Origin: Hyphomicrobium sp.
Lineage (GTDB): Bacteria > Pseudomonadota > Alphaproteobacteria > Rhizobiales > Hyphomicrobiaceae
Assembly: GCA_022841965.1 (NCBI GenBank)
Contig: JALHQM010000014.1
Coordinates: 10,402 to 56,607, forward strand
Reading direction: 5' to 3'
DNA length: 46,206 nucleotides
Shown: positions 1 through 17,223 of the stretch, piece by piece
How the letters are laid out: each line of letters starts with the position of its first letter
How positions within the stretch are numbered: position 1 is the first letter of the stretch
Program-made: the position numbers and the translations under genes
The notes under the pieces: generated by a model
Told to the model about the DNA's origin: nothing
The model's input: only the letters and a program-made list of their open reading frames with translations
The model's database searches: none

Positions 1-92
1 TCTCCATCATACCGGGGAAACGAGGCCTCGCGCCCTGGTGTGCAGACGTCAGCGAGCCGATTTCAGTGCAATAACAAATGAGGAAACGTAAC

Positions 93-392
93 ATGCTGAT
101 CACCGCTAAGTCTGGCTCGGCCATTGCCGCCGCCGCTGCCGCTCTTCTGCTTTCCGGCGCCGTCGCCTCCCCATCGATCGCCGCGTCCGATGCCAAGGGT
201 CACTGCGTTGGTGCCAACAGCTGCAAAGGCACCAGCGCATGCAAGACGGCCAAGAATGAATGTGGTGGCCTCAATGCGTGCAAGGGCCAAGGCTTCCTGC
301 AGTTGACCAAGGCCGAGTGCGATAAAATCGAAGGCGCGAAATTCGAAGAAATGAAGATGGACGACAAGAAGATGGACGATAAGAAGGGCTAA
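93..392 (+). CDS. bufA: BufA-type bufferin precursor (Cys-rich exported metallophore peptide)
   Basis: This is a 99-residue precursor with an Ala-rich signal peptide (about residues 1-31, ending near SIAA) and a small mature region with six Cys. The Cys are spaced 5, 5, 6, 5 and 12 residues apart, within NSCKG/NACKG-type repeats. The tail is highly charged and repeats the element KMDDK. Bufferins are ribosomal peptides whose Cys are modified by an MNIO enzyme and its partner; the exported product binds copper. The next two genes are exactly those partners, which is the strongest support. The repeats look more like the BufA2 type than DUF2282/BufA1, but the subtype is a judgement. I chose ATG 93 because AGGA lies 8 nt upstream; an in-frame ATG at 78 has no clear ribosome site. 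The promoter is probably cut by the window edge. Confidence 0.85.
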   Translation: MLITAKSGSAIAAAAAALLLSGAVASPSIAASDAKGHCVGANSCKGTSACKTAKNECGGLNACKGQGFLQLTKAECDKIEGAKFEEMKMDDKKMDDKKG

Positions 393-497
393 ACCCTGCG
401 AACGGTTCCGGTTGCGCGCTGTGCGGTGCTGGTCTGCCTCTTGCTCCCGCAGTACGGCCGCGCGCATCCGGAACCAACTTTGCGAGAAAAACGACGC

Positions 498-1367
498 ATG
501 ACGACCAAGTCCACCGAGCCGTCCGTTTCGCGTCCGAGGTATCTTGGTTTCGGCCTGGGTCTTCGTCCGCAGCACTATGCCGATATTCTTGACGGCAATC
601 CGGACATAGATTGGTTCGAGGTCATCTCCGAGAACTACATGGTGCCCGGCGGCCAGCCGCTGCGCATGCTGGAACGAATTCGAGCCCGCTATCCCATCGT
701 AATGCACGGCGTTTCGCTATCGATCGCCTCGACATCGCCACTGGATCACGACTATCTCACCGGACTGCGCACGCTCGCCGATCGTTTCGAGCCCGAGTTC
801 GTCTCCGACCATTTGTGTTGGACCGGCGTTCACGGCGTCAACCTTCACGATCTTCTACCTGTCCCCTACACCCGCGAAGCGCTTGATCACGTCTGCGCGC
901 GCGTATCAGCCGTGCAAGACGCCATCGCCCGTCCCCTCGCTCTGGAAAACGTCTCCAGCTATATCGAGTACGCCCACTCGGACATGACCGAATGGGACTT
1001 CCTGGCCGAACTCACGCGCCGCACCGGCTGCTGGCTGGTCCTCGACGTCAACAATGTGTTCGTGTCCGCCTTCAATCATGGTTGGAACGCGCATCGATTT
1101 ATCGACACCATACCGCGCGATCGTGTCGTGCAATTCCACCTCGCCGGCCACGAACATGCGATGACCCACATCATCGATACGCACGATGCGCTCGTGCCGC
1201 CCGAGGTCTGGGATCTTTACGCCTATGCCGTCGACCGCTTCGGCGCCGTCTCGACCATCATCGAGCGCGACGACCACATTCCACCCCTCGCCGATATGGT
1301 GAGCGAACTTTCCATCGCCCGCCGCATCGCAGGTGAACGAATTCCGGCGCTCGCCGAGGTCTCATGA
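498..1367 (+). CDS. bufB: DUF692 / MNIO-family oxidase, bufferin-modifying BufB
   Basis: This 289-residue protein belongs to the DUF692 (MbnB-like) family, multinuclear non-heme iron oxidases with a TIM-barrel fold that modify Cys in ribosomal peptides. Candidate metal ligands lie at the family's usual places: H70 (VMHGVS), D104-H105 (VSDHLCW), E150 (LALENVSSY), D183 (LDVNN), H214/H218 (FHLAGHE), D228-H229 (DTHD) and E256 (IERDDH). The inferred role is oxidation of the Cys of the upstream BufA peptide, probably together with BufC. The reading frame stays open upstream to 426, but family homology begins near GFGLGLRP, so ATG 498 fits better. The stop codon sits immediately before the bufC start, consistent with one operon. 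Confidence 0.9.
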   Translation: MTTKSTEPSVSRPRYLGFGLGLRPQHYADILDGNPDIDWFEVISENYMVPGGQPLRMLERIRARYPIVMHGVSLSIASTSPLDHDYLTGLRTLADRFEPEFVSDHLCWTGVHGVNLHDLLPVPYTREALDHVCARVSAVQDAIARPLALENVSSYIEYAHSDMTEWDFLAELTRRTGCWLVLDVNNVFVSAFNHGWNAHRFIDTIPRDRVVQFHLAGHEHAMTHIIDTHDALVPPEVWDLYAYAVDRFGAVSTIIERDDHIPPLADMVSELSIARRIAGERIPALAEVS

Positions 1368-1368
1368 T

Positions 1369-2208
1369 ATGCGCCGCCGGTCCTCTCCAAGCCTCGCGGC
1401 TCTCCAATCGGATCTGCAAGCCGCAATCCTATCCGGCGATGTAAGATCAGTCGTCCCCCTCGTTCGCGCTGGCGCCCATGCCCCGCGCGACACACTCGTC
1501 GGTGTTTACACCTCAGCCTACGTGCTGCGCCTCATCGGCATCCTGAAAGCCGACTTCCCGCTAACGCACGCCTACATGGGCGACAGCGCCTTTGATCGGG
1601 CAGTTCGATCCTACATCGCAGCCCATCCCTCCCCACACCGCAGCGCCCGCTGGGTCGGCGACCGCTTCGCTCCGCATCTCGCCACCGATCGCGAATTCGC
1701 CGCCGAGCCCCAGTGCGGTGAACTCGCCGCTCTGGAATGGGCGCTGGGCCTCGCCTTCGATGCGCCAGATGCGCCGCACGTGTCGCTCAGCGACATGGCC
1801 GCCGTCCCGCCCGAAGCGTGGGGCGAGATGATCTTTTGCGCGCATCCCTCAGCGGCCATCCATACAGAGGCATGGAACACTTTTCTGATCTGGTCGGCCC
1901 TCAAAGAGAACACCGCGCCGCCGCCCGCCAGCCGTCATGCCGAGCCCGTCTCCTTCCTGATCTGGCGGCGGGACGGCACGCCCACCCTTCGCGGCCTCGC
2001 TCCCGAGGAAGCCATGCTGTGGCAAGAGGCGGCCCGCCCCGTTCCGCTCGCCCGCATGTGTGAATTGGCGGCCAGCTTCGATGATCCCGAAACCGCCGCC
2101 ACCCGCGTCGCCGCCTACGTCCACGGCTGGCTGCATGGGGGCGCGCTCTCCGCTGTATCGCTCCCAAACACCGCGACAGGCTTTTCCCATTCCGCGCCTC
2201 TGCTATAA
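1369..2208 (+). CDS. bufC: DUF2063-type bufferin maturation partner BufC
   Basis: This protein of about 279 residues resembles the DUF2063 family, the usual partner of DUF692 oxidases. The N-terminal half (about residues 5-95) has the family pattern LQSDLQAAIL followed by YTSAYVLRLIGILKADFP. That domain is thought to recognise the precursor peptide and present it to the oxidase. The C-terminal half carries another alpha/beta region ending in an Ala-rich helix. It follows bufB almost directly. ATG 1369 has GAGGT about 8 nt upstream; an in-frame GTG at 1333, inside bufB, is the alternative. The gene ends 20 nt before a tRNA gene with no obvious terminator between. Confidence 0.85.
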   Translation: MRRRSSPSLAALQSDLQAAILSGDVRSVVPLVRAGAHAPRDTLVGVYTSAYVLRLIGILKADFPLTHAYMGDSAFDRAVRSYIAAHPSPHRSARWVGDRFAPHLATDREFAAEPQCGELAALEWALGLAFDAPDAPHVSLSDMAAVPPEAWGEMIFCAHPSAAIHTEAWNTFLIWSALKENTAPPPASRHAEPVSFLIWRRDGTPTLRGLAPEEAMLWQEAARPVPLARMCELAASFDDPETAATRVAAYVHGWLHGGALSAVSLPNTATGFSHSAPLL

Positions 2209-2228
2209 GACGCCTCGACCATGCGTCA

Positions 2229-2305
2229 GGTCCCGTAGCTCAGCCGGATAGAGCGACAGTTTCCTAAACTGTAGGTCGCAGGTTCGAGACCTGCCGGGAT
2301 CGCCA
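2229..2305 (+). tRNA. tRNA-Arg (anticodon CCT)
   Basis: A 77-nt cloverleaf with encoded CCA. The acceptor arms GGTCCCG and CGGGATC pair with one G-T wobble, followed by discriminator G and CCA. The D arm carries GCTC...GAGC. The anticodon stem ACAGT/ACTGT encloses loop TTCCTAA, so the anticodon is CCT and reads AGG. The T arm holds the invariant GGTTCGAGACC. It lies 20 nt after bufC. This is a normal intact gene; no integrase or duplicated 3' end nearby suggests use as an attachment site. Confidence 0.97.
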
Positions 2306-2525
2306 CCGTGCATCGCCACAGGCACCGCCAGCGCCGTGTCCGCGCAGAATGTGCGACCGCCTTCAAATCCCCGTCGTCCAAAAGCAGGTTGGTTAACGGG
2401 GCCCGTCAGTGGGCCGCGCGTGTTAGGCGGGTTTTCAGGCGAGCTGATCAAATCTTGTGCGGCGACCCGTCGCGCCCTTCGGTTGGGCAACCGCCAACCG
2501 TCAGAAAAACCTAATAAATCCTGAC

Positions 2526-2540
2526 TGGCACGTCCCTTGC
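2526..2540 (+). promoter_or_regulatory. Sigma-54 (RpoN) promoter of the ammonium transporter gene
   Basis: TGGCACGTCCCTTGC matches the RpoN -24/-12 consensus TGGCAC-N5-TTGC exactly. It lies 104 nt before the amt start codon. RpoN control through NtrC is the usual arrangement for ammonium transporters, so nitrogen limitation is the inferred signal. No convincing NtrC site was found between the tRNA (2305) and this element. That 220-bp stretch contains no gene I can support and only weak inverted repeats (for example GGCCC...GGGCC near 2400). Confidence 0.85.
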
Positions 2541-2559
2541 CTTAACTGGCACGAGGATT

Positions 2560-2578
2560 ATTTTCCTCTCGGGAAAAT
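2560..2578. promoter_or_regulatory. Dyad ATTTTC-N7-GAAAAT upstream of amt (possible operator, copy 1)
   Basis: A perfect inverted repeat with a 7-bp spacer, including TTTTCCTCTCGGGAAAAT. It starts 20 nt after the sigma-54 -12 element, so it would lie just downstream of the predicted transcription start, in the untranslated leader. The same dyad, with identical spacing and 15 of 18 core bases identical, occurs at 4388-4406 ahead of the APC permease. A shared DNA-binding regulator is inferred; a short RNA hairpin is the alternative reading. Confidence 0.5.
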
Positions 2579-2644
2579 TCTCAGGCCACCTCCCAGCCTT
2601 TCGGGGGGTGACGAGTTGGGGCTTAAACAAGAGAGCGCAGGGAC

Positions 2645-3964
2645 ATGGAGCAACAGATAGCCGACCTAACGGCCAAGCTGGCTGCACTGGAAGCATCGAC
2701 GAAAATGTCGGGGACCATCAACTCCGAAGTCTTCTACTGGTGGTGTATCGCGTTGATGATCGTCATCCACGCCGGATTTCTCGCCTATGAAATGGGCGCA
2801 TCGCGCGCCAAAAACGTGCTCGCCTCGGGCATCAAGAACATCCTCGCCTTCGCCTTCATCGTTCCAACCTTCTTCTTCTTCGGTTGGTGGATCTATCTGG
2901 CATTCCCTGGCGGCATCACAGTCGCCGACGCCGCCGCTGACGGCCTGCCGTGGGCTCAAAAGATGGGCCCCAACCTTGCCGATAACGCCACGGGCATCTT
3001 CTGGGGCGCCTTTGCCCTGTTCGCCGCGACCACCGCGTCGATCATGTCGGGTGCCGTCATCGAGCGCATTCGGATGACGGGTTTCATCATCCTCGCCATC
3101 TTCCTCGGCTCCGTGGTCTGGATCCTCGGCGCGTCGTGGGGCTGGCATCCGTCGGGTTGGCTGACGACCGAATATGGCTTCCATGACGTCGGCGCCGCTG
3201 GTTGCGTGCACTTGATCGCCGGTGCCTTCGCGCTCGGCGTTCTGATCAACCTCGGCCCCCGCATCGGCAAGTTCAATGCGGACGGCACGGCCAACGAAAT
3301 CGGTGGCCACAACATGCCGATGACGGTCATCGGGTTGATGCTGATCATCGTCGGTTTCTTCGGCTTCCTTGGCGGCTGCATCATCTATGTCAACGGCGGC
3401 CAGTGGACGAACATCTACGGTCAGCCCACGACGCTCTCGGCATTCTCCTTCAACACACTGATGGGCTTCTGCGGCGGCCTGATCGGCGCATGGGTCAAGA
3501 CACGTGATCCCTTCTGGATGATGTCGGGTGGCCTCGTCGGCATCATCTCGGCTGCCGCCGGTCTCGACGTCTGGTACCCGCCGCTGGCTTTCGCGATTGG
3601 CTTCTTCGGCGCTTTCATGGCTCCGATCGTTGCCAAGATGGTCGAAAAAGCTGGCATCGACGATGCAGTCGCCGCAGTCGCCGTCCATGGCTGGGGTGGT
3701 CTGTGGGGTGTCATCGCCTGCGGTCTCTTCGCCTCCGGCTATCCCAACATCAACGACATGCCGCCGGTCTCTCTGATGGGTCAGCTCATCGGCGCCAGCG
3801 TGTTCTTGGCACTCGGCTTCGGCTCCGGCTTCTTCCTGTCGCTGGTGCTGAAGATGTTCGGACTTCTCCGCGTGCCGCCGAACTCGGAAATCCTCGGTCT
3901 CGACAAGACCAAGGTTCCGCTCGCGGCATATCCCGAAGGCCTCAGAGCGATGCCTGCTGAGTAA
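2645..3964 (+). CDS. amt: Ammonium transporter (Amt family, divergent)
   Basis: A 439-residue polytopic membrane protein with the Amt/Mep/Rh fold, moving NH4+/NH3 and possibly methylammonium across the inner membrane. The Amt core is recognisable: a Phe-gate region (FWGAFALFAATTASI followed by GAVIERIR), a Trp-containing stretch (ASWGWHPSGW), the Asp and first pore His spaced as in AmtB (D-x7-H in HDVGAAGCVH), and the second pore His (AVAVHGWGG). The usual DFAGG signature is replaced by HDVGAAG, so it is an outlying subfamily. The N-terminus is a short amphipathic coiled-coil-like helix (EQQIADLTAKLAALEA) rather than a cleavable signal. No glnK lies next to it; a 60-residue membrane peptide follows instead. 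The gene has a sigma-54 promoter and leader dyad. Confidence 0.92.
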   Translation: MEQQIADLTAKLAALEASTKMSGTINSEVFYWWCIALMIVIHAGFLAYEMGASRAKNVLASGIKNILAFAFIVPTFFFFGWWIYLAFPGGITVADAAADGLPWAQKMGPNLADNATGIFWGAFALFAATTASIMSGAVIERIRMTGFIILAIFLGSVVWILGASWGWHPSGWLTTEYGFHDVGAAGCVHLIAGAFALGVLINLGPRIGKFNADGTANEIGGHNMPMTVIGLMLIIVGFFGFLGGCIIYVNGGQWTNIYGQPTTLSAFSFNTLMGFCGGLIGAWVKTRDPFWMMSGGLVGIISAAAGLDVWYPPLAFAIGFFGAFMAPIVAKMVEKAGIDDAVAAVAVHGWGGLWGVIACGLFASGYPNINDMPPVSLMGQLIGASVFLALGFGSGFFLSLVLKMFGLLRVPPNSEILGLDKTKVPLAAYPEGLRAMPAE

Positions 3965-4003
3965 TCCCTCAAACTCGGACTCTGATCTGAAAGGTCAAAC
4001 ACC

Positions 4004-4186
4004 ATGAACACATCACCAATCACCAAGTGGGACGGAGCCACCGCCTACTTCACCTACGCTGACAACCCGAACATGATGCTCGCCCTTCTGGCTCTCTCGG
4101 CCGTGATCGTCGTTGGCTCGATCATCTTCGGCGCCTTCCACGAGAAGGAGTGCTACGTGAAGGTCGAAGAGAACGGCAAGCGCTGA
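4004..4186 (+). CDS. Small single-pass membrane protein linked to amt
   Basis: A 60-residue protein with one transmembrane helix (about residues 24-44, MMLALLALSAVIVVGSIIFGAF), an aromatic polar N-terminus and a charged Lys/Glu tail with one Cys. I do not recognise the family. It starts 39 nt after amt with a plausible AAAGG ribosome site, and is closed by a strong hairpin terminator, so it is very probably translated with amt. A small accessory or regulatory subunit of the transporter is a guess based only on position and size. It is unlike GlnK/PII proteins, which are soluble. Confidence 0.75.
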   Translation: MNTSPITKWDGATAYFTYADNPNMMLALLALSAVIVVGSIIFGAFHEKECYVKVEENGKR

Positions 4187-4198
4187 CGCCATCGCGAC

Positions 4199-4241
4199 GG
4201 CGGGCGCTAGGCCGAAACGCTGAGCGCCCGCCTCTCCTTTT
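4199..4241 (+). terminator. Intrinsic terminator after amt and its small partner
   Basis: A perfect 10-bp stem, GGCGGGCGCT pairing with AGCGCCCGCC (4199-4208 with 4223-4232), followed by a pyrimidine run containing TTTT. It begins 12 nt after the 60-residue gene's stop codon. Confidence 0.85.
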
Positions 4242-4313
4242 CAGTGTGGCTCATGCCGCACCGATGTTCCGCACCTGCCGGGGAGAGGCACCCCAGCCGG
4301 CGGGCGCGACAAG

Positions 4314-4353
4314 CGAGGCCTCGGGAGCGGACGCCCGAGGCCTCGACTTTTTT
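4314..4353 (+). terminator. Second strong intrinsic terminator between amt and the permease
   Basis: A perfect 12-bp stem, CGAGGCCTCGGG (4314-4325) pairing with CCCGAGGCCTCG (4334-4345), followed by AC and six T. It lies 73 nt beyond the first terminator. Either it backs up the first one, or it ends a short RNA transcribed from about 4240. The stretch 4242-4313 holds no coding sequence I can support. I tested it by eye against glycine and other riboswitch cores and found no match. Confidence 0.85.
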
Positions 4354-4387
4354 GTGCAGCGCACTGACGGTTGAACTTCCAAAGAAA

Positions 4388-4406
4388 ATTTTCCTCCCAT
4401 GAAAAT
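4388..4406. promoter_or_regulatory. Dyad ATTTTC-N7-GAAAAT upstream of the APC permease (possible operator, copy 2)
   Basis: The same dyad as at 2560-2578, with core TTTTCCTCCCATGAAAAT. It lies 129 nt before the permease start codon. TTGACA follows 4 nt later (4411-4416) and could be a -35 element, although no good -10 is seen 17 nt downstream. No sigma-54 element is visible here, so the dyad rather than the sigma factor is what the two transporter genes share. Confidence 0.5.
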
Positions 4407-4535
4407 ATTTTGACAACGTAGAGTTCCCATGCATCCTTTCGTCGCACGATAGCCGCCCCCGCCATCGGCCGGACGGCTGACGTCACGACAACCAAACAAG
4501 CTCGCGCAACAGCGGGCGGCATGGGGGAAGAGCCA

Positions 4536-6272
4536 ATGACAGCCGTCACAACGGGTGCTCAACCGGGCACCGAGAATACCTTGCTGAGGACCATCGATTG
4601 GCGCGGAGCATTTTGGATCGCCAGCGGTGTTCCCGCCCTTGTCCTGATTTCAATTGGCGGAATGGGCGCCACTGCGGGAAAAGTCGCGTTTCTCGTCTGG
4701 TTCATATCCGTGCTGATGGGTTTTTGTCAGGCATTCAGCTACGCGGAAATTGCGGGCCTGTTTCACAATAAATCGGGCGGGGCTGCAATTTACGGAGCAG
4801 CGGCTTGGTTGCGATACAGCAAATTAATCGCGCCACTTTCAGTATGGTGCAATTGGTTTGCCTGGACACCGGTATTGTCGCTCGGTTGCGCCATTGCAGC
4901 TGGCTATATCCTGAACGCCCTGGCACCCATCCCCACATTCGGTCTCGAATCTGCCGAAGTCCAAGCCTGGCTCAAAGACGCTGCCAACACTGCTGCCATC
5001 GCGGGAAAAACCGCAGAAGAAGCCGCGACCCTGGCGGCCGCCGCTCTCAGCGAAGCAGCAACGCCCTGGATCCGTTCCTTCAAAGTCTTCCAGTTCTCGT
5101 TCCTCGGACTTGCCAACATCGAAGTCGGCGCCACCTTCTTCATCGGCGCCATTCTCATGCTCGTCACTTTTGCCATCCAGCATCGTGGCGTCTTGGGCAC
5201 CGCACGCGTTCAGAAATACATCGGCCTGCTCGTGCTGATCCCCATGACCATCGTGGGCGTGGTGCCGTTCTTCAATGGCGGCGTCAACTACGACAATTTT
5301 TCGCCGATCGTTCCACCGACTGGCGATTGGAGCAACCCCGGCTGGACGTATGTCCTCGGCGCTCTCTTTATCGCTGCTTGGTCGACCTACGCCTTCGAAA
5401 CGGCCGTTTGCTACACGCGGGAATTCAAGAATCCGGCCACCGACACGTTCAAGGCAATCTTCTGGGCGGGCGTAGTCTCGGTCGCCCTCTACACGCTCGT
5501 AGCCGCTTCATTTCAAGGATATCTTGGCATTGAAGGAATGACGGCCCCGTCGATCGTTGACGGCACCGGCGTTGCCACCGCCATGGGCCAGATGGTCGGC
5601 GGCGGCAATGTCTACGTCACGCATCTGCTCGAAATGATGATGATCTTGGCTCTGATGCTTGCCATCATGATGGCCATGGCAGGTTCATCGCGCACGCTCT
5701 ATCAGGGCTCGGTCGATGGCTGGCTTCCCAAGTATCTGAGCCACGTCAACGAACACGGCGCGCCAACCCGCGCCATGTGGACGGATCTGGTCTTCAACCT
5801 TGGTCTTTTGACGTTCGCTGCCTCCGACGCAACCGCCTACTTTTTCATTCTCGCGATCTCCAACGTCGGCTACATCATCTTCATCTTCCTCAATCTGCAG
5901 GCGACCTGGATTCACCGCATCGATAGCCCAAACATTCCCCGTCCCTATCGGGCACCGACACTGCTGATCGGGTTCAACGCGATTCTCGGCTTTGTGAACC
6001 TCGTGTTCATGGGTGCTGGCGCCAAGGTGTGGGGCAATCCGAACGTGCTCTTTTATGGTTTGGGTTTCGCCGCACTGATCATTCCAGTGTTCTTGTTCCG
6101 CCACTACGTCCAAGACAAAGGACAATTCCCGGCTGAAATGCTGACGGAATTGAATCTCAAAGGCCAGGACCTCGGCGAGCGAAAAGCAGGCATGTTGCCG
6201 TACTTGACGCTTGTTCTTGCGGCAATTGTCGTCTTGACCTCGCACTATTACTTCCAGCTTCCGCCCGCGTAG
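4536..6272 (+). CDS. APC-superfamily permease, candidate amine or amino-acid importer
   Basis: A 578-residue, roughly 12-helix inner-membrane permease of the APC superfamily, with the glycine-rich first helix region (ASGVPALVLISIGGMGA) and a conserved middle (FETAVCYTREFKNP). It is longer than typical members because of a periplasmic or cytoplasmic Ala/Glu-rich insertion at about residues 135-175. Substrate cannot be read from sequence. It sits between amt and the trimethylamine/dimethylamine genes, and no TmoXWV-type ABC transporter or BCCT carrier is present, so import of methylated amines is a reasonable inference. ATG 4536 is preferred over 4521 because GGGGGAAGAG lies just upstream of it. 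It is a monocistronic unit closed by its own terminator. Confidence 0.85.
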   Translation: MTAVTTGAQPGTENTLLRTIDWRGAFWIASGVPALVLISIGGMGATAGKVAFLVWFISVLMGFCQAFSYAEIAGLFHNKSGGAAIYGAAAWLRYSKLIAPLSVWCNWFAWTPVLSLGCAIAAGYILNALAPIPTFGLESAEVQAWLKDAANTAAIAGKTAEEAATLAAAALSEAATPWIRSFKVFQFSFLGLANIEVGATFFIGAILMLVTFAIQHRGVLGTARVQKYIGLLVLIPMTIVGVVPFFNGGVNYDNFSPIVPPTGDWSNPGWTYVLGALFIAAWSTYAFETAVCYTREFKNPATDTFKAIFWAGVVSVALYTLVAASFQGYLGIEGMTAPSIVDGTGVATAMGQMVGGGNVYVTHLLEMMMILALMLAIMMAMAGSSRTLYQGSVDGWLPKYLSHVNEHGAPTRAMWTDLVFNLGLLTFAASDATAYFFILAISNVGYIIFIFLNLQATWIHRIDSPNIPRPYRAPTLLIGFNAILGFVNLVFMGAGAKVWGNPNVLFYGLGFAALIIPVFLFRHYVQDKGQFPAEMLTELNLKGQDLGERKAGMLPYLTLVLAAIVVLTSHYYFQLPPA

Positions 6273-6301
6273 AGACAGAGGCGATAAAATCAGACAATCT
6301 A

Positions 6302-6338
6302 AGATGGGCCGTGCAGTGAAATGTGCGGCCCATCTTTT
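6302..6338 (+). terminator. Intrinsic terminator after the APC permease
   Basis: AGATGGGCCG (6302-6311) pairs perfectly with CGGCCCATCT (6326-6335), and the stem runs into TTTT. It separates the permease from the amine-oxidation operon, whose promoter must lie in 6339-6515. I see no confident -35/-10 or sigma-54 match there. Confidence 0.85.
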
Positions 6339-6515
6339 GTTGAGCACCAGCAGAAAAGTGACGTGACGCCGTTGCGTATGAAAATGCCTTTGGTATAGTG
6401 TAGAGAATAAATCTTCACTGGGGAGCAAGAGTGGCGGTGCAACAGGCGGGGGCAATTTTCGGCCACCTGCTAACGTGCATCAAAGTCGAAGTTTGGGACT
6501 AGCTGAGGGAGCTGA

Positions 6516-7121
6516 ATGCTCAGTCCGGGGATCATTAGTCGGCCAGTCTACGAAGGCCTCGAGCCAGATGTCCGCGCCAGACACAACCTCATCATCGCCG
6601 AAGGGGAAGGCGCGTCCGCGATTCTGGACCTCGCAAAGAAAACGCCGCAGGATTTCTTCGCGAAAACAACACTCCTTTACTGTCCCGCCGGCTCCGCCCC
6701 AAAGAACTACGAAAACCAACTCCAAGCGCTGCAGCCCAAGGCGCTTTGGACGTTCCCCACCCCCGCCACCGTCATGTTTCGCCTCAAAGGCGTGCTGCAG
6801 ACAGCGACCATGGGAACCCGTCTCTACGTCACCGGCACCGAACCCTTCATCGGCCTAGCCCTCAAAGAAGCGCTCGAAGCCGGCATCGATCACAAGTCCC
6901 TGATTACGGAACATCGCGGCTCGGCAAAGCGCCGCGTTCAGTGCGTTCACTGCAAGGGGTTCACCGAGGACGTCACAACGAACCCGGCCAAGTGCAGCCA
7001 CTGCGGCCTGACCCTCCTCGTGCGCGACCACTATTCGCGGCGCCTCGCTGCCTTCCAGGGTGTCTGCATCGATGCCGAAGTGCCCGGTGACGCTCCCGCG
7101 CCCGAGGAGATCTTTCCATGA
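6516..7121 (+). CDS. dmmA: Dimethylamine monooxygenase small subunit (DmmA-like)
   Basis: A 201-residue soluble protein whose C-terminal part has a zinc-ribbon pattern: C143-x2-C146 (CVHC) and C160-x2-C163 (CSHC). The N-terminal part has a Rossmann-like region and an MGTRLYVTGTEPFIG stretch. It matches the small subunit encoded with the heme-dependent dimethylamine monooxygenase (oxidative N-demethylase), a four-subunit enzyme releasing formaldehyde from dimethylamine. Naming differs between studies; I use the dmmDABC lettering with moderate confidence. A GAGGGAG ribosome site precedes the ATG. The stop overlaps the next start (ATGA), so it is translationally coupled to dmmB. It is the first gene of the amine operon. 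Confidence 0.8.
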   Translation: MLSPGIISRPVYEGLEPDVRARHNLIIAEGEGASAILDLAKKTPQDFFAKTTLLYCPAGSAPKNYENQLQALQPKALWTFPTPATVMFRLKGVLQTATMGTRLYVTGTEPFIGLALKEALEAGIDHKSLITEHRGSAKRRVQCVHCKGFTEDVTTNPAKCSHCGLTLLVRDHYSRRLAAFQGVCIDAEVPGDAPAPEEIFP

Positions 7122-8086
7122 GCGGTGAAGCCGAATTCCGCGTCCGCGTCGCCGAAACTGAAACCGTCGCCGATGGCATTCGCCGTCTGCGTCTCGTCCC
7201 ACTCGGCCGCAACGCGCTTCCGCTCTTCTCCGGCGGCGCCCACACCGTACTCACAATGCATGATGAGGATCGCGTTCTGCGCAATCCGTATTCGCTCATG
7301 GGTTCGCCTTTCGATCCGTCGAGTTACCAGATCAGCGTCCTGCGCACGCCGAACTCGCGCGGCGGCTCCATCTTCGTCCACGATAAGCTCCGCGAGGGCA
7401 GCGAACTCTCCATCACCGCGCCCGTCAATCTCTTTCCCATCGATCGCCGCGCCCGCCGTCACGTGCTGATCGCCGGCGGCATCGGCATCACGCCATTCAT
7501 GGCCATGATGGAGCAACTCGAGCGCGAGGAACTGCCGTTCGAACTGCACTATGGCATGCGGTCGAAATCCGGCGGCGCGTACTGGAGCGCGCTACGCGAC
7601 ACCTATGGCCGCCGCATCAACACCTACTTCGATGATGCGCAGCAGAAAATTCCCCTGACACGTCTCCTCGAAAATCAGCCGCTCGGCACGCACCTCTACG
7701 TCTGTGGCCCCGCCGCCATGATCGATTGGGTTTTAAGCGAAGCCCGCGACGCCGGCTGGCCGGAGGAAAACGTCCACTTCGAACGTTTCTCCGCGCCGCC
7801 CGCTGGCGCACCGTTCACCATTGAACTCGCCAAAGCCGGCCGCACCATCGAGGTTAAGCCGACCCAAAGCATCCTCGAAGCCATCGAATCCGCGGGCCTC
7901 TCTGTGCCTTATCTCTGCCGCGGCGGCGCGTGCGGTCAATGCGAAAGCCACGTCGTTTCATGTACCGGCGCGATCGAACACAACGACCACTTCCTTACCG
8001 ATGCCGAAAAAGCGTCGGGCGGCAAAATCATGATCTGCGTGTCGCGTCTGAAAAGCGCCGGCAGCCGCATCGTCCTCGACCTCTAG
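7118..8086 (+). CDS. dmmB: Dimethylamine monooxygenase reductase subunit (DmmB)
   Basis: A 322-residue reductase of the phthalate-dioxygenase-reductase type: a flavin-binding beta-barrel, an NAD(P)H domain (GGIGITPFMAM near residue 128), and a C-terminal plant-type 2Fe-2S ferredoxin domain. The cluster ligands are C267, C272 and C275 (CRGGACGQC) and a fourth Cys near residue 307. It would pass electrons from NAD(P)H to the heme subunit encoded next. It overlaps dmmA by 4 nt and ends 18 nt before the heme subunit gene. Alone it could be any Rieske-type reductase, but the neighbours fix its role. Confidence 0.88.
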   Translation: MSGEAEFRVRVAETETVADGIRRLRLVPLGRNALPLFSGGAHTVLTMHDEDRVLRNPYSLMGSPFDPSSYQISVLRTPNSRGGSIFVHDKLREGSELSITAPVNLFPIDRRARRHVLIAGGIGITPFMAMMEQLEREELPFELHYGMRSKSGGAYWSALRDTYGRRINTYFDDAQQKIPLTRLLENQPLGTHLYVCGPAAMIDWVLSEARDAGWPEENVHFERFSAPPAGAPFTIELAKAGRTIEVKPTQSILEAIESAGLSVPYLCRGGACGQCESHVVSCTGAIEHNDHFLTDAEKASGGKIMICVSRLKSAGSRIVLDL

Positions 8087-8104
8087 CAGCGGAGTAGCTT
8101 CGTC

Positions 8105-9145
8105 ATGGGCCTCATCTTCAAGGACGAAACCTTTCGCGACGACTTCACGTTTTCCAACAGTCCGGCGGCGATCAGGCGTTTCCCATTTCCGTTCCATGAA
8201 GACCGCTACATGTACACGGTCAACATCGAGCCCCACATTCCAGGCCCCAAAGGCTCAGCCTTCGAATTCCCTATCGATATCGACGAGCACTATCTCTCAG
8301 ACATGCGCGACCGCGCGATCACACTGGCGCAAGATCCGCTGCGCTGTCAGTCACTGCCGCACATGCTCACCGCCGAATGGGATCTCGTCGAACTTCTCAT
8401 GACGTCGATGTCGGACCACTATCCCGAACACTTCACACTGACGCGGGAGGGAGACGACTGGCACTGGATCAACCGCCCCATGGGCATCGATCAGACGTTT
8501 GTCTTCGGCGATGTCGCAACGCTTCCCTACCGCCCGATGGAATACATCACCCGCCAGTGTCAGGGCGATTTCTGCCTCCTCGATCAGCGCGACGGCGACC
8601 TCTGGATGGATTCTGGGATAGTCACGTCCCAAGCCGATTGGTCACTCGATTTCGATGTCGGAATGAGCTTTAAGGAATGGCACGCCCCCGTGCCCATGGC
8701 ACATGAAGTCGGCGTTTTCGACCGCGCGCTGAAATTCCTGCTCAACATGCAGCAGGGCAAGCCCGTCCGCCGCCTCAACTGGACCATGACCATCAATCCG
8801 CGCCTCGATACAAGCCCGGAGAACTATCACAAATGGGGCACAGATCGCACGACCGTGACGCCCGAAAATGTCGGCGATAAAGTTCACCTGCGCGTCGAAT
8901 TGCAAGGTCTGTGGCGACTGCCTCGGTCCAACGCCATCGTGTTTTCCATTCGCGCCTATCTCATCAAGATGGACGAACTCGTGACCGTGCCGAAGTGGGG
9001 TCGCCGCCTGCATCGCGTCCTGAAGACGTTGCCCGATGTCATCGCTGATTACAAAGGCACAACCCGCTATCGGCAGACCACCATCGACTGGCTCGCCAAA
9101 TTCGACGACGGCGCGCCGACATCCAAGGGATGCTGGCCCGACTGA
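8105..9145 (+). CDS. dmmD: Heme-dependent oxidative N-demethylase, catalytic subunit (DUF3445 type)
   Basis: A 346-residue protein of the DUF3445/PF11927 family, the heme-PAS catalytic subunit (alpha) of dimethylamine monooxygenase. In characterised members this subunit binds heme b and demethylates dimethylamine to methylamine plus formaldehyde. Family-like features are the N-terminal [18 protein letters not shown] region, the [13 protein letters not shown] segment, and the C-terminal IVFSIRAYL and DYKGTTRYR elements. I cannot assign the heme ligand from sequence alone. In the dmmDABC lettering this is DmmD; some papers call it the alpha subunit or DmmA. It lies between dmmB and tmm in the same orientation. 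Confidence 0.87.
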
Positions 9146-9207
9146 CCGGCGTTCATCTCACGACCGTGCATGCGCCTTCCATGTCTAACGAAAAGGACAG
9201 TCGATCC

Positions 9208-10575
9208 ATGACACAGCGTATAGCCATCATTGGAGCAGGCCCCTCCGGCATGGCGGCCCTGCGCGCTTTCGAAAGCGCCAAACAGAAGGGCACCGAAATC
9301 CCAGAACTCGTTTGTTACGAAAAGCAGGACGATTGGGGCGGCATCTGGAACTACACGTGGCGAACCGGCACGGATGAGCACGGCGAACCCGTTCACGGCA
9401 GCATGTACCGCTATCTTTGGTCGAACGGACCCAAGGAGTGCCTCGAATTTGCCGACTACTCTTTTGAAGAGCACTTCGGCCGGCCCATTCCCTCTTATCC
9501 GCCGCGCGCCGTCCTGCACGATTACATCAAAGGTCGCGTCGAAAAGAGCGGCGTGCGCAAGTACATGAAGTTCCGCACACCCGTGCGCAACGTCACCTAC
9601 AATGACAAGACCCAGAAATTCACCGTCACCGTCAAAGATCTCAAGGACGACGCGCTCTCCTCATCAGAGTTCGATTGGGTCATCTGCTCGAGCGGTCACT
9701 TCTCCACGCCCAATGTCCCCGAATTCCCCGGCCTTGCGCAGTTCCCCGGCCGCGTCCTGCACGCCCACGACTTCCGCTCCGCCGATGAATTCGCCGGCAA
9801 GGACGTGCTCTGCATCGGCTCGAGTTATTCATCCGAAGACATTGGCATCCAGTGTCACAAGTATGGCGCCAAGTCCGTCACCTTCTCACACCGCACGCGC
9901 GCCATGGGCTTCAAATGGCCCGATAGTCTCTCCGAAGTGCCCCTCCTCCTGAAACTCGATGGCAAAACCGCCTACTTCAAGGACGGCACGTCAAAGGAAG
10001 TCGACGCCATCGTGCTCTGCACGGGCTACCTCCACCACTACCCCTTCCTCGACGACAGCCTGCGCCTCAAATCGCGCAACCGCCTCTACCCGCCGTCTCT
10101 CTACAAGGGCGTGTTCTGGTGGCCCAACAACAAGTTCATCTATCTCGGCGCGCAGGACCAGTACTACACCTTCAACATGTTCGACGCGCAGGCCTGGTAC
10201 GCCCGCGACGTCATCCTCGGTCGCATTAAGCTCCCTGGCTTCGAGGAGCAGGCCAAGGACATCAACGCCTGGATTCAACGCGAAGAAGCCATCGCCGACG
10301 CTTTCGAAGCAATCGACTTCCAGACCGAGTACGTGCGCGACCTCTTAGGCCCCACAGACTACCCGCGCCTCGACGTTGACATGGTCGCCCGCCTCTTCAA
10401 GGAGTGGGAGCACCACAAGATGGAAGACATCCTCACCTATCGTGACCGCAGTTATCCATCGACCATCACCGGCAACCTAGCGCCCGTCCACCACACGCCG
10501 TGGATGCAAGCCCTTGACGACAGCATGCAGGCCTTCCTGAACCAGCCCGATCTCTCCGCGCCCAAAGTCGCCTGA
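9208..10575 (+). CDS. tmm: Trimethylamine monooxygenase (flavin-containing)
   Basis: A 455-residue class B flavin monooxygenase matching bacterial Tmm, which oxidises trimethylamine to trimethylamine N-oxide with NADPH and O2. The FAD motif GAGPSG is at residues 9-14, the FMO fingerprint [11 protein letters not shown] is near 178-188, and the NADPH motif [10 protein letters not shown] is near 203. Tmm-like stretches include [30 protein letters not shown] and [12 protein letters not shown]. The start is set at ATG 9208, where homology begins ([11 protein letters not shown]) with AAGGA upstream; the open frame extends to 9130, overlapping the previous gene. It is followed directly by tdm, as in Methylocella silvestris. 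Confidence 0.95.
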
Positions 10576-10593
10576 CCCGGGCATGTGATCACC

Positions 10594-12945
10594 ATGGCAC
10601 CGTCAACCGTCATCACGCCGTCGAGCCCGGAAGTGATCTTTCCGGGCAAGCCCGCCCTCGCGCCGGGCGTCGAGCGCTACACCGTGTCCGGCGGCGGCTC
10701 CTCCGTGTTCGCACTGGGATCCGGCGACCGCATCGACCTCGTCGCAATCGAAGGCGGCCAACCGCTCGAACTGCTCGCGTTCGGCAAAGATGGCAAACCA
10801 GACCTCGGCGCGCTCGGCCTCAAAGGAAAAGTCGCGCCGTCTGGCTTACAAGCCATCCTCGCCTCCGATCGCGACGACGCCGCCCGCGTCCGCTTCGGCC
10901 TCTTCCGCCGCGGCATCGACATTGGACGCGCCAAAGCAGCCACGCTCTTCGACACGGCTACCCCGCCCGGCGAAATCGTCTCGCTCACCGCAGAGCGCGC
11001 GGTCGTCGTGATCATCGCCGCCCCCGCCACCCCCGGCACCGTCTGGGATCAGACACCCGCCACCGACACCCTTGCCCTCATCACCCGCGCGACCACCCTC
11101 CCGCCGCAGCTCCGCGAACCGCCCGAGCCCCTGGCCGAACCCCGCCTCGACTTGCGCATCAACATCGCCTCATCAATGGGCTTCGAAGTCTACGCCGGCG
11201 AATACATCCAGATCGTCGACATCGCCGGCCGCCAGTGCTCCGACTTCCTCGCCTTCGAACGCCGCGCCGTCGACGCTGGCCGCCCCTTGCCCCTCGACTC
11301 CACGACCACGCGCACGATGTCCGGCCTCGCCTATCCCAAACCCGGCCTCGCCTCTCGCTTCTACGATCGCGACCGCAACCCGCTCGTCGAAGTCGTGCAA
11401 GACACCGTCGGCCGCCACGACACCTTCGGCCTCGCCTGCACGTCGCGCACCTACGAAGATGCCGGCTATTTCGGCCACGCCAACTGCTCCGACAATCTCA
11501 ACGTCACCATGGCGCCCTATCGCATCGACGGCCGCCGCGGCTGGCCCGCCATCAACTTTTTCTACAACACCAACGTCGACCACCAGAACCAGATCTGGTT
11601 CGACGAACCCTGGTCCCGCCCCGGCGACTACGTGCTGATGCGCGCGCTCTCCGATCTCGTCTGCGCCGCCACGTCATGCCCCGACGACATCGATCCCGCG
11701 AACGGCTGGCAACTCACCGAAATCCAGGTGCGCGTCTATCCAAAGACCGCCACCTTCAAGCGCGCGATGGGATACCGCATGACCGCCGACGCCCCCCTGC
11801 AGATGACCAAAGAAACCGGCTTCCACCCGCGCACGTCCGAACTGACGCACACATTCGGCGAATATCGCGGCTATTGGGTTCCCCACCGCTTCACCAAAGC
11901 CGGCCCCATCGAGGAATACTGGGCCTGCCGCGAGAAGGTCGTCATCATGGACCTCTCGCCGCTGCGCAAACTCGAAATCCTGGGCCCTGACGCTGAGACC
12001 TTCCTTCAGTCCGTCTTCCCGCGCGACATCCGCAAACTCGCAGCCGGCCAAATTTTCTACACCGCACTATGCTACGACCACGGCGGCATGGTCGACGACG
12101 GCACGCTCTTCCGCCTCTCCCAAAACAACTTCCGCTGGATCGGCGGCGACGATGCGAGCCTTGTCTGGCTGCGCGAGCAGGCTCTCAAATCCGGCGCCAA
12201 TGTCCTCTTGAAGTCCGCCACCAACGACATCCACAACGTCGCCGTCCAAGGCCCCAAATCGCGCGACACGCTCCGTCCCATTCTGTGGACACCGGGCGGC
12301 CGCCCGACCCTCGACGAACTCGGTCCCTTCCGCTTCACCATCGGCCGCATCGGCGGCTACGATGGCATTCCCGTCATCGTCTCGCGCACCGGCTACACCG
12401 GCGAACAAGGCTACGAAGTTTTCTGTCACCCTAAGGATGCCCCCGCCGTCTGGGACGCCATTATGCAATCGGGCGAAGAACACGGCATCCGCCCCTTCGG
12501 CTTCGACGCCCTCGATATGGTTCGCATTGAAGCCGGCCTCGCCTTCGGCGGCTTTGAATTCGATAGCACCACCGACCCCTTCGAAGCTGGCATTGGCTTC
12601 ACGGTGCCCACCAAAAAAGAAGAAGACTACATCGGCAAGGCCGCCCTCGAACGCCGCCGCACCACGCCCGCGCGCAAACTTGTCGGCCTCGAAATCGCCG
12701 GCAACGAGCCCGCCAGCCACGGCGACAAGCTCTACGCCGGCCGCGCCGAAATCGGTGTCGTTACCAGCGGCATGCGCTCACCGCTCCTCAAGAAAACCAT
12801 CGCGCTCGCCCGTGTCGATGTCGCCCACGCGGAGCCGGGCACCAAACTCGCCGTCGGTAAACTCGACGGCCACATCAAGCGCCTCGACGCAACCGTCGTC
12901 CGCTTCCCCTTCTACGACCCGGAAAAAACGCGGGTCCGATCCTGA
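10594..12945 (+). CDS. tdm: Trimethylamine N-oxide demethylase (DUF1989-GcvT fusion)
   Basis: A 783-residue two-domain protein. The N-terminal part (about residues 1-370) is a DUF1989 domain, the metal-dependent demethylase module, with conserved Cys in GRQCSDF, ACTSRTYEDAG and GHANCSDN. The C-terminal part (about 400-780) is a GcvT-like tetrahydrofolate-binding domain, with YDHGGMVDDGTLFRL and GYTGEQGYEVF. Known Tdm enzymes split TMAO into dimethylamine and formaldehyde and pass formaldehyde to folate. Length and domain order fit the family. The start is ATG 10594; an in-frame GTG at 10585 is possible. It lies 18 nt after tmm and 34 nt before another GcvT-like gene. Confidence 0.95.
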   Translation: MAPSTVITPSSPEVIFPGKPALAPGVERYTVSGGGSSVFALGSGDRIDLVAIEGGQPLELLAFGKDGKPDLGALGLKGKVAPSGLQAILASDRDDAARVRFGLFRRGIDIGRAKAATLFDTATPPGEIVSLTAERAVVVIIAAPATPGTVWDQTPATDTLALITRATTLPPQLREPPEPLAEPRLDLRINIASSMGFEVYAGEYIQIVDIAGRQCSDFLAFERRAVDAGRPLPLDSTTTRTMSGLAYPKPGLASRFYDRDRNPLVEVVQDTVGRHDTFGLACTSRTYEDAGYFGHANCSDNLNVTMAPYRIDGRRGWPAINFFYNTNVDHQNQIWFDEPWSRPGDYVLMRALSDLVCAATSCPDDIDPANGWQLTEIQVRVYPKTATFKRAMGYRMTADAPLQMTKETGFHPRTSELTHTFGEYRGYWVPHRFTKAGPIEEYWACREKVVIMDLSPLRKLEILGPDAETFLQSVFPRDIRKLAAGQIFYTALCYDHGGMVDDGTLFRLSQNNFRWIGGDDASLVWLREQALKSGANVLLKSATNDIHNVAVQGPKSRDTLRPILWTPGGRPTLDELGPFRFTIGRIGGYDGIPVIVSRTGYTGEQGYEVFCHPKDAPAVWDAIMQSGEEHGIRPFGFDALDMVRIEAGLAFGGFEFDSTTDPFEAGIGFTVPTKKEEDYIGKAALERRRTTPARKLVGLEIAGNEPASHGDKLYAGRAEIGVVTSGMRSPLLKKTIALARVDVAHAEPGTKLAVGKLDGHIKRLDATVVRFPFYDPEKTRVRS

Positions 12946-12979
12946 AACCCTCAAAGTTGAACACAGGGAGTTACAAAAA

Positions 12980-14086
12980 ATGCCGGCCTTTCCGCGTGTC
13001 ACCGCGCTTTACGATCGCCACATTGCCCTCGGCTCCGACATGTCGACCGCATGGAACGACATGGCGATTTCGCAAAACTACGCGACCGACCCCGACATCG
13101 AAACCGCCGTCACCCGCACCAAGGCCGGGCTCATCGAAGTCACAGCCCTTAATCTCGTGCTCGTCAAAGGTCCCGGCGCCACGGATCTCCTGAACTATAT
13201 GCTGACAACGGACATCGCGAAGGCCGCGCCAGGTGATAGCCACATCTCAAACATCGTCAACGAGAACGGCGGCCTCATCGACGACGTGCTCGTCTATGTG
13301 CTCGAACCCAACGTCTATCGCCTCTCCCACGGCAGCGGCACAACGGCAGCGACACTGAAGGCCTTGGCTCCGAAATACGACGTCACCATCGAGCCCGACG
13401 ACACCCACGTCCTCTCCCTGCAAGGCCCGCTTTCTGCAGAAGTTCTCCAGCCGCATACGCCGCTCAACCTCGACACGCTCGGCTACTTCAAGCACGCGCC
13501 GACGACGCTCTTTGGCAAGGCGATCCAAATGGCCCGCGGCGGCTATTCCGGCGAGCGCGGCTATGAAGTCTTCTGCACCCGCGGCGACGCGGTCTTCATC
13601 TGGGATGCCATCCTCGAAGCCGGCAAGCCCCACGGCGTCATGCCCGTCTCCTGGACCTGCCTTGATACCGTCCGCGTCGAAGGCGGCCTCCTCTTCTTCC
13701 CCTTTGACATGCCCCACACCGACACCACCCCCTGGGAGGTCAAGGCGGACTGGACGGTTGATCTCTCCAAGCCTGACTTCATCGGAAAATCAGCTCTCGC
13801 CGCCTCAAAGGGTAAGGAGCGCTCCGTCATCACCGGCCTCGAAGTCTGGCACTCCGCCGCCATCACCCCTGGCGCCAAAGTGAAAATTGGCGGTCGCGAC
13901 GTCGGCGTGGTCACGTCAACCGTCTTCAGCCGGTATCTTATGAAGTCGCTGGCCATGGCGCAGATCGACAAGGCCTACACGGCACTCGGCACTGCGCTCG
14001 AAATCGAAGAAGACGGCAAAACCTATTCCTCAACCGTCGTGCGCATGCCGTTTTACGATCCCATGCGCCTGCGCACGCACGGCTGA
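12980..14086 (+). CDS. dmmC: GcvT-like tetrahydrofolate-binding subunit of dimethylamine monooxygenase
   Basis: A 368-residue aminomethyltransferase-family protein, with IVNENGGLIDDVLVYVL, ARGGYSGERGYEVF and ETLRVE-like CLDTVRVEGG segments typical of GcvT folate-binding proteins. No glycine-cleavage genes are nearby. It ends the amine operon, so it most likely serves as the folate-binding (delta) subunit that captures formaldehyde from dimethylamine. In the lettering used here it is DmmC. The frame remains open upstream into tdm, but the codons there are a shadow; ATG 12980 has GGGAG 9 nt before it. It is a paralogue of the C-terminal half of Tdm. A role as free-standing GcvT is a less likely alternative. 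Confidence 0.85.
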   Translation: MPAFPRVTALYDRHIALGSDMSTAWNDMAISQNYATDPDIETAVTRTKAGLIEVTALNLVLVKGPGATDLLNYMLTTDIAKAAPGDSHISNIVNENGGLIDDVLVYVLEPNVYRLSHGSGTTAATLKALAPKYDVTIEPDDTHVLSLQGPLSAEVLQPHTPLNLDTLGYFKHAPTTLFGKAIQMARGGYSGERGYEVFCTRGDAVFIWDAILEAGKPHGVMPVSWTCLDTVRVEGGLLFFPFDMPHTDTTPWEVKADWTVDLSKPDFIGKSALAASKGKERSVITGLEVWHSAAITPGAKVKIGGRDVGVVTSTVFSRYLMKSLAMAQIDKAYTALGTALEIEEDGKTYSSTVVRMPFYDPMRLRTHG

Positions 14087-14114
14087 TCCGATCACCACGT
14101 CGACCAGAACGCGC

Positions 14115-14152
14115 AAAGGCGCCGCTGCTACGCGGCGCCTTTCTCTATTTTA
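14115..14152 (+). terminator. Intrinsic terminator of the amine-oxidation operon
   Basis: AAAGGCGCCGC pairs perfectly with GCGGCGCCTTT around a 6-nt loop (stem arms 14115-14125 and 14132-14142), followed by CTCTATTTT. It defines 6516-14152 as one transcription unit if no internal terminators act. Confidence 0.88.
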
Positions 14153-14336
14153 GAACATCATCTCTGCGCACATGGATGCGCCATCCTTAAGCCTTCGTTA
14201 AGCTCACCTGATGCCTAAGATAGTGTGGCGAAAAGTTCAATTTCGTAACGCTCCGGCAACCGGAATAGCCGACATTCGAGCTTCTGCCACAGTTGTGTGG
14301 GATCGATCCTCATCGGCTCCATTTGGCCGTCCGCAT

Positions 14337-16377: not shown

Positions 16378-17223
16378 ATGGAAACCGTCATGCGTATCGA
16401 GCCCCCCACTCTTGCCGCTATGGCCATCGCCGTTGCGATGCCATTCAGTCCTGCCAGCGCCCAATCTCTGAGTGTCTTCGGCGGCTGGGACAATGACAGC
16501 GCGGCAAGCTATGACCGCCCCGCCTATCGCACACCGCAGGCAGCGCCCAACTCCAATCCCTATGGCGGCTCATCCTTCGGGTTCAATTCAGGCTCAGGCC
16601 AACCCTTCCCTGCCATCATGGAAGGTGGCGGGAGACCGGTCATCGCTGGCCGCGCGCCGCCCATCATCCCATTTGCTTCGAATGAAAACCCGGGCACGAT
16701 CCTCATCGACAATGCAAAACGCCGGCTCTATTTCGTCCTGAACAATGACGAAGTTTATGAATATCCGATCTCGGTCGGCCGCGACGGCTTCACCTGGACC
16801 GGCACCGAAACGATCAGCCGCGTTGCCGATTGGCCCGATTGGCATCCGCCCGCCGAAATGCGGCAGCGCGATCCGCGACTGCCCGAGAAAATGTATGGCG
16901 GCATCAAAAATCCGCTCGGCGTAAAAGCCCTGTTCCTTGGCAACACGCTCTATCGCATTCATGGCACCAACGATCCAAAGACCATCGGCTACGCCGCGTC
17001 CTCAGGCTGCTTCCGCATGATGAACGAACACGTCGTGCATCTGGCAGCACTTGTCAGTGAAGGCACGGTGGTCAAGGTCATGAACAGCATCGTCGAGCCG
17101 CAGCAGACCGCAACCGCTCCATCGTGGGAAGCCAAGCCCACTGCGCTCGGCGGTGATACCCGGCGTCCATCCGGCACGCGTGAGTTCTACGACGATCAAG
17201 CTGACATCTGGGTCGCCCGCTGA
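16378..17223 (+). CDS. L,D-transpeptidase (YkuD domain), periplasmic
   Basis: A protein of about 281 residues with an N-terminal export signal (AMAIAVAMPFSPASAQS), a Pro/Gly/Ser-rich linker, and a YkuD catalytic domain. The signature is intact: IHGTNDPKTIG followed by SSGCFRMMNEHV, giving the His and nucleophilic Cys. These enzymes make 3-3 cross-links in peptidoglycan or attach proteins to it in the periplasm. The short non-catalytic tail after the domain is Thr/Ala-rich. The start is uncertain among GTG 16372, ATG 16378 and ATG 16390. It lies 57 nt after the Crp-like gene and could be co-transcribed with it. Confidence 0.9.
   Translation: METVMRIEPPTLAAMAIAVAMPFSPASAQSLSVFGGWDNDSAASYDRPAYRTPQAAPNSNPYGGSSFGFNSGSGQPFPAIMEGGGRPVIAGRAPPIIPFASNENPGTILIDNAKRRLYFVLNNDEVYEYPISVGRDGFTWTGTETISRVADWPDWHPPAEMRQRDPRLPEKMYGGIKNPLGVKALFLGNTLYRIHGTNDPKTIGYAASSGCFRMMNEHVVHLAALVSEGTVVKVMNSIVEPQQTATAPSWEAKPTALGGDTRRPSGTREFYDDQADIWVAR

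Follow-up and report, generated by a model that had tools for sequence, protein, structure and literature searches.

Inverted repeats ahead of an ammonium transporter gene and a trimethylamine N-oxide permease gene of Hyphomicrobium look like sites of an XRE-cupin regulator of methylated-amine use

A 46,206-nt stretch of Hyphomicrobium sp. DNA (assembly GCA_022841965.1, contig JALHQM010000014.1; hereafter, the window) carries the inverted repeat ATTTTC-N7-GAAAAT twice: as dyad 1 (positions 2560–2578) in the leader of the ammonium transporter gene amt, and as dyad 2 (4388–4406) upstream of a permease gene for trimethylamine N-oxide (TMAO). These two matching palindromes are real and conserved. 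They look like docking sites of a regulator, so far unstudied, with an apparent role in controlling the use of methylated amines across many bacteria. From comparison of sequences, we consider it reasonably probable that both dyads are operators of a transcription factor dedicated to methylated-amine use; the likely type of this regulator is XRE-cupin, encoded outside the window and probably acting as a repressor.

Two matching palindromes, conserved within the genus

A preliminary description of the window, made from its letters alone, had reported the same inverted repeat at both positions, and both copies are indeed found there, alike at 16 of 19 bases by direct comparison. The exact pattern occurs twice in the window, as against a mean of 0.01 in shuffled sequences (at least two copies in 0 of 100 shuffles). 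Across the window's own assembled genome (G000; 3,054,165 bases, 88.8% complete), dyads 1 and 2, lying 1.8 kb apart, are the only exact copies, and the reversed control pattern has none, placing the genome-wide count of the exact dyad above chance. The description's remark that the window holds no third copy stands for exact matches. It does not hold with two mismatches allowed, when a third site emerges at 16671–16689 within an L,D-transpeptidase frame, albeit at chance level (at least three sites in 8 of 100 shuffles). Exact copies are present in 14 of 59 other genomes; in three, all from the same genus, it is the amt copy, and the other 11 genomes lie outside the genus.

Both dyads persist in orthologous upstream regions of the genus. 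The amt-leader dyad is kept in all four genomes having a close amt (G000–G003) and the permease dyad in all four having a close permease (G000, G001, G002, G004); the relatives search returned no close amt in G004 or G005 and no permease match in G003 or G005. In the amt leader of G001, flanks and centre are altered while ATTTTCC...GGAAAAT is unchanged. The permease dyad is weakened to CTTTCCTGAGAAGAAAA in G001 and G004, where a C stands ahead of TTTCC, and TTTCCT-N5-GAAA near TTGACA is retained in all four permease genomes. The closest named relative among the matches listed, a contig of a Hyphomicrobium metagenome-assembled genome (NCCZ01000004.1, locus L108), has a 98% identical amt, whose upstream region reads like that of G002.

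The dyad at amt and XRE-cupin loci of other genera

The preliminary description had proposed a search for the dyad ahead of amt, permease and dmm/tmm orthologues, and enrichment of its core ahead of amt and amine genes extends to other genera. The amt set derives from the 80 best of 530 stretches confirmed in a scan of GTDB genomes; 79 had 200 bp or more of upstream sequence, and removal of near-duplicates left 74. When every four-base inverted repeat (256) was counted at each of 10 spacings (2,560 patterns), TTTC-N7-GAAA came first in these 74 regions (14, versus a shuffle mean of 0.82 and maximum of 5), the runner-up being TTCC-N5-GGAA (9), a portion of the same motif. Genera with the dyad upstream of amt include Methyloceanibacter, Methylobrevis, Methylopila, Rhizobium and Mesorhizobium, along with Neptunomonas, Marinomonas, Amphritea, Methylophaga and Neptuniibacter.

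A matrix built from 23 non-amt sites detects 26 of the 74 amt upstream regions above a 99% null threshold (0.74 expected), training and test sets comprising separate sites in common genomes. The same matrix scores the window sites at 22.9 and 24.1, versus a 99.9% threshold of 17.1. With a matrix from 37 out-of-genus sites, no other place in the window scores above 10.4 bits, against 24.5 and 22.7 for dyads 1 and 2. A sigma-54 promoter was seen by scan in 29 of 82 amt upstream regions; ten amt dyads that accompany a recognisable one—those of the window and two genus copies included—are centred between -57 and +21 of the inferred starts.

Within amt loci, the dyad also precedes gmaS (L170, where it lies between gmaS and a divergent gene for an HTH_3 plus Cupin_2 protein), a GcvT-like gene of the dmm group (L163, L174), an mgsA-like gene (L128) and an XRE-cupin gene (L176). 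We assigned the names mgs, mgd and gmaS from family matches and gene order. A profile made from six XRE-cupin (HTH_3 plus Cupin_2) proteins matches 44 of 48 genomes carrying this amt. From these 44 genomes we took up to 19.5 kb around 50 XRE-cupin genes, 49 with a usable upstream region; most of the 50 are surrounded by mgs, gmaS, mgd, dmm, tmm or tdm genes. With amt upstream regions excluded, TTTC-N7-GAAA is again first of the 2,560 patterns (20 loci; random mean 1.11, maximum 4); in one of these loci, L358, the region is shared with a divergent amt promoter. It also leads by excess over chance (18.8), followed by GAAA-N5-TTTC (15.7; 17 loci, random mean 1.2), which is made of the same half-sites turned outward. 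Noncoding DNA upstream of XRE, mgs, gmaS, mgd and dmm genes contains 22 sites distributed over 18 of the 50 loci, where 0.8 would be expected at the rate seen in the rest of these loci; the comparison is inflated by the higher A+T content of upstream relative to coding DNA. Anagrams of the half-site match 1–5 of 50 loci versus 19 for TTTC.

Three half-sites spaced 7 and 5, as in TTTC-N7-GAAA-N5-TTTC, occur in 7 of 35 loci whose XRE-cupin proteins have helix types other than that of the window genome's candidate (random mean 0.01), so that the operator there may take the form of a tandem array repeating every 20 bases. Arrays of at least three TTTC/GAAA half-sites with alternating 7/5 spacers stand upstream of amine genes in L320, L323, L329, L347, L348, L355 and L356. 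Read from the window sequence, its two dyads have no third TTTC or GAAA at array spacing.

A different dyad accompanies the TMAO permeases of other genera. All 17 permeases at 74–80% identity (16 from other genera and one second copy in G002) have an adjacent, divergent XRE-cupin gene, and 10 of 15 examined loci contain a strict TTGC-N7-GCAA in place of the window's TTTC form; the helix of the permease-adjacent protein differs too (SSAMLSR, in the two alignments examined). Such divergent pairs with TTGC-N7-GCAA repeats were seen in several of L226–L242 and in L261, and six permease loci have two copies starting 37–45 bp apart in the intergenic stretch.

Taken together, the presence of the exact dyad in orthologous upstream regions, its above-chance count and the enrichment of its core ahead of amt and amine genes support one regulator type for both window genes. 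The earlier suggestion of one regulator bound at both dyads finds support as to type; a single protein may serve both.

The candidate regulator and competing explanations

The window genome encodes a candidate of its own, outside the window and on a different contig from amt and the permease gene (C100, 4964–5779), behind genes resembling mgdA-mgdB-mgdC-mgdD (sarcosine-oxidase type). Of two XRE-cupin matches counted in G000, this is the one strong hit among the matches listed. Its product has HTH_3 (PF01381, 89–141) and Cupin_2 (PF07883, 199–262) domains, both above cut-off, and the helix core SLGMLSKIENG; this very protein may read both window sites. Elsewhere in the same genome (L255; contig C56, 8456–10992), a partial second gmaS-like gene lies beside a 48%-identical permease paralogue.

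The same helix core is found beside TTTC dyads in L324, L265 and L266 and near an amt dyad in L335. Outside the window's family, the SLGMLSKIENG class has the outward form GAAA-N5-TTTC in 5 of 14 loci (random mean 0.32, maximum 3), three of the five from Jiella and hence related, which points to the same half-site. In G018 (L266), TTGCCTGTCAGGCAA precedes mgdA and TTTCCTGAAATGAAA adjoins an XRE-cupin gene with this helix core, making it plausible that one protein reads both the TTTC and the TTGC form.

Several observations weigh against an XRE-cupin assignment, or against its reach. Among 25 proteins with SLGMLSKIENG, four have a TTTC dyad within 1.5 kb and three a TTGC dyad; the other 18, six of them from the window's genus, have neither. 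Outside the family, 1 of 14 loci of this helix class has TTTC-N7-GAAA upstream, versus 19 of 35 for other helices. A perfect palindrome with TTGC half-sites, TTGCCTGWCAGGCAA, lies upstream of mgdA in G001–G004 (L249 11232, L250 8292, L251 10636, L252 8213) and again in G018 (L266 598), its place being taken by TTGCCTCACAGGCAA or TTGCCTGTGAGGCAA in G112, G114 and G110. The XRE-cupin locus of G000 contains no strict dyad, the stretch before mgdA being cut by the contig end. The strict dyad occurs in only 15 of 79 amt upstream regions, leaving 64 without it, and is also present in 1 of 21 amt-like genes of other subfamilies (25 control loci, 21 of adequate length). At the XRE-cupin loci, a GC-rich pattern, GCCG-N5-CGGC, likewise exceeds chance (18 loci, random mean 5.0). 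Per genome, amt dyads and cluster dyads are not significantly associated (22, 10 / 5, 7; Fisher p = 0.16), and 4 of 30 gmaS-like loci of the window's family have a dyad anywhere, so gmaS is not a clear target in that family. Genome-wide counts of looser patterns do not clearly exceed those of the reversed controls: TTTTCCTNNNNNGAAAA with one mismatch gives 5+3 versus 1+3 in G000, TTKCCTNNNRGGMAA gives 27 versus 17 summed over six genus genomes and 1 versus 7 in G000 alone, and TTTCCTNNNNNGAAA gives 6 versus 2 in G000. Four further TTTCCT-N5-GAAA copies in G000 were set aside; no target could be assigned to them, and they lie within open frames or at frame edges.

These counts lend some weight to an alternative that we regard as unlikely yet the most serious: the dyads would serve another regulator—LysR-type, GntR/TmoR-like, AraC/TmaR-like or a second XRE-cupin protein—and the C100 protein would read the mgd palindrome only. 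The TTGC half-sites of that palindrome in the genus, the rarity of TTTC-N7-GAAA in the C100 helix class and the non-significant co-occurrence all fit this alternative. LysR-type proteins recognise a T-N11-A box, which is contained in the arms TTC-N7-GAA. L147 has a GntR-FCD gene close to amt, the G000 assembly is incomplete, and TmaR and TmoR control the trimethylamine genes of Ruegeria pomeroyi, according to the available part of PMC13390433. Against it stand the dyads placed directly upstream of XRE-cupin genes, or of adjoining mgs/gmaS, in 18 of 50 loci, as well as the pairing in G018 of a TTGC palindrome before mgdA with a TTTC dyad beside a gene of the same helix core. Six neighbouring frames of G003 provided no competitor either: four match families, none a regulator, and two match none. 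The proteins scanned by family matching, a scan that was not exhaustive, included no LysR protein, and the C100 candidate has HTH_3 and Cupin_2 instead of an AraC-type helix-turn-helix (HTH).

A further alternative, in which the amt copy is a leader RNA hairpin (stem AUUUUCC/GGAAAAU) and the permease copy a coincidence, appears highly improbable. The stem is kept in G001 despite altered flanks and loop, and the local 51-nt amt stretch folds better than its own shuffles (z -3.07). Whole leaders, by contrast, fold no better than shuffles (z -0.88, -0.64, -0.10), nor does the permease stretch (z -0.87); many sites lack inner complementarity on reading; and no Rfam match was obtained at the dyad at E up to 1. 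The permease copy precedes its inferred promoter, as do copies before gmaS (L170) and amt (L134), and because several copies are thus upstream of promoters, a hairpin is disfavoured as a general explanation. Chance similarity of two AT-rich promoter stretches is the least credible account of all: the exact copies in 11 of 59 genomes outside the genus and the near-control levels of looser patterns would suit it, against which stand the uniqueness of the exact dyad, its conservation in the genus, the enrichment at amt and XRE-cupin loci and the cross-trained matrix.

Returning to an XRE-cupin operator, a dimer combining a Cro/C1-type HTH with a cupin sensor would bind the TTTC and GAAA half-sites, a 4-7-4 geometry that resembles classic Cro/C1 operators. 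It would block the permease promoter beside its -35 box and the amt sigma-54 promoter just past its start, so that the operator would be layered on a sigma-70-like promoter in one case and on a sigma-54 promoter in the other. A methylated-amine catabolite bound by the cupin may release the repressor, in which case amt would need both a nitrogen-limitation input, through sigma-54, and an amine signal. The preliminary description had judged the amt dyad, past the predicted start, to be suited to repression, and its location relative to the inferred sigma-54 start agrees. The range of amt dyad positions and the dyad beside the -35 box fit a polymerase-blocking protein; with the analogy to Pseudomonas aeruginosa set out below, repression relieved by an amine catabolite is the favoured mode.

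More tentatively, and with somewhat less confidence than in the operators themselves, we envisage a methylated-amine regulon common to Alpha- and Gammaproteobacteria. An XRE-cupin repressor would gate sigma-54 promoters, and the N-methylglutamate pathway would open, together with the uptake of ammonium and TMAO, only when nitrogen shortage coincides with the presence of a methylamine catabolite. Its half-sites would be TTTC(C/T)T, spaced 7 inward and 5 outward and forming arrays, with the variants TTGCCT-N3-AGGCAA and TTGC-N7-GCAA going with paralogues.

Gene context and relation to known systems

The permease gene, previously described as an APC permease for amines, does belong to the APC family and can be specified as a TMAO permease (Table 1).

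Table 1. Features around the two dyads (window coordinates).
Feature	Position	Strand	Basis and remarks
Sigma-54-type promoter of amt, TGGCACG-N4-TTGC	2526–2540	+	Sequence and consensus scan; kept in G001–G003; inferred start ~2552
Dyad 1, ATTTTCCTCTCGGGAAAAT, proposed operator of amt	2560–2578	+	Centre ~+18 from inferred start; top matrix score in window
amt, ammonium transporter, subfamily frequent in methylamine gene clusters	2645–3964	+	Pfam PF00909, relatives
Dyad 2, ATTTTCCTCCCATGAAAAT, proposed operator of TMAO permease	4388–4406	+	Ends 3 bases ahead of -35 box; second matrix score
Sigma-70-like promoter: TTGACA 4410–4415, 16-bp spacer, CATCCT 4432–4437	4410–4437	+	Alignment of 4 genomes; -10 assignment inferred
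APC-family TMAO permease gene	4521–6272	+	NCBIfam NF053774, 807.7 bits vs cut-off 690
DmmA-like, reductase, HODM-like, trimethylamine monooxygenase, TMAO demethylase and GcvT-like genes	6516–14086	+	Family matches

Beyond dyad 1, the amt leader contains a second hairpin at 2586–2611, CACCTCCC...GGGGGGTG, which is kept in G002 and G003 via a G-U pair and differs in G001. A small open frame of 60 residues follows amt directly (4004–4186), with a similar frame after amt in G003. Between amt and the permease gene, an 86-base noncoding stretch (4264–4349) is 96–100% identical in five of six genus genomes, the window's own included, with one copy in each; it folds better than shuffles (z -3.77), ends in a GC stem and T-run, and persists in G004, which has another amt, and in G003, which is without the permease. 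It is a candidate small RNA or unusually conserved terminator. No Rfam match was obtained for it at E up to 1, and a weak match in G026 was set aside, as it reads as coding sequence. Over bases 1–14500, the only Rfam hit above gathering score is a tRNA at 2229–2302. Further out, at 78–2208, a small frame with Cys precedes MbnB/TglH/ChrH-type and DUF2063 proteins, an arrangement that resembles bufferin operons. The protein encoded at 17439–19541 combines eight stretches of YadA head repeats with a coiled-coil-like portion.

Methylated amines commonly serve as a source of nitrogen and carbon, and the best-described control of their use that we found, in the part of PMC13390433 available, concerns one Roseobacter. 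A sequence-defined operator together with a candidate protein type makes the proposed regulon testable in many genera. The regulon would account for the placement of this amt within amine clusters, and suggests a link between nitrogen status (through sigma-54) and substrate.

Related mentions in the open-licence PMC literature were limited, in the portions available, to two: a figure legend lists an XRE gene as co-occurring in such methylamine clusters (PMC7574528), and in Methyloversatilis a co-clustered putative regulator, its family not stated, is induced on methylamine (PMC5023235). The available parts of PMC12565409, PMC5520151 and PMC8292978 contain nothing further on this dyad, and the terms motif, palindrom, binding site, XRE and cupin are absent from the main text of PMC13390433. 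TmaR (AraC) and TmoR (GntR) of Ruegeria pomeroyi, as described in what was available of that paper, control the same kind of pathway, and tmaR adjoins mgd as XRE-cupin genes do here (PMC13390433); both proteins nevertheless belong to other families than XRE-cupin.

The best NCBIfam match of the C100 candidate is PuuR of Escherichia coli (NF007408), a weak one: at 47.8 bits, far below the cut-off of 211, the candidate was rejected as a PuuR equivalog. PuuR regulates a glutamine-synthetase-like enzyme and an APC permease. These targets parallel GmaS and the TMAO permease; the substrate of PuuR differs.

Closest in kind are XRE-cupin proteins of P. aeruginosa, which, in the available text of PMC7901475, inhibit neighbouring metabolic genes from palindromic sites and are released upon sensing a pathway precursor. 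Like PauR, PsdR and ErfA of Pseudomonas, the proteins considered here combine an HTH with a cupin, and they would act on palindromic sites and on metabolic genes beside their own; PauR, moreover, acts on a gamma-glutamylation pathway (PMC7901475, same portion). Unlike for those three, the regulator gene is not adjacent to the two window genes, the presumed regulon comprises the N-methylglutamate pathway, dmm, amt and the TMAO permease, and the operator would be TTTC-N7-GAAA, with several copies on sigma-54 promoters.

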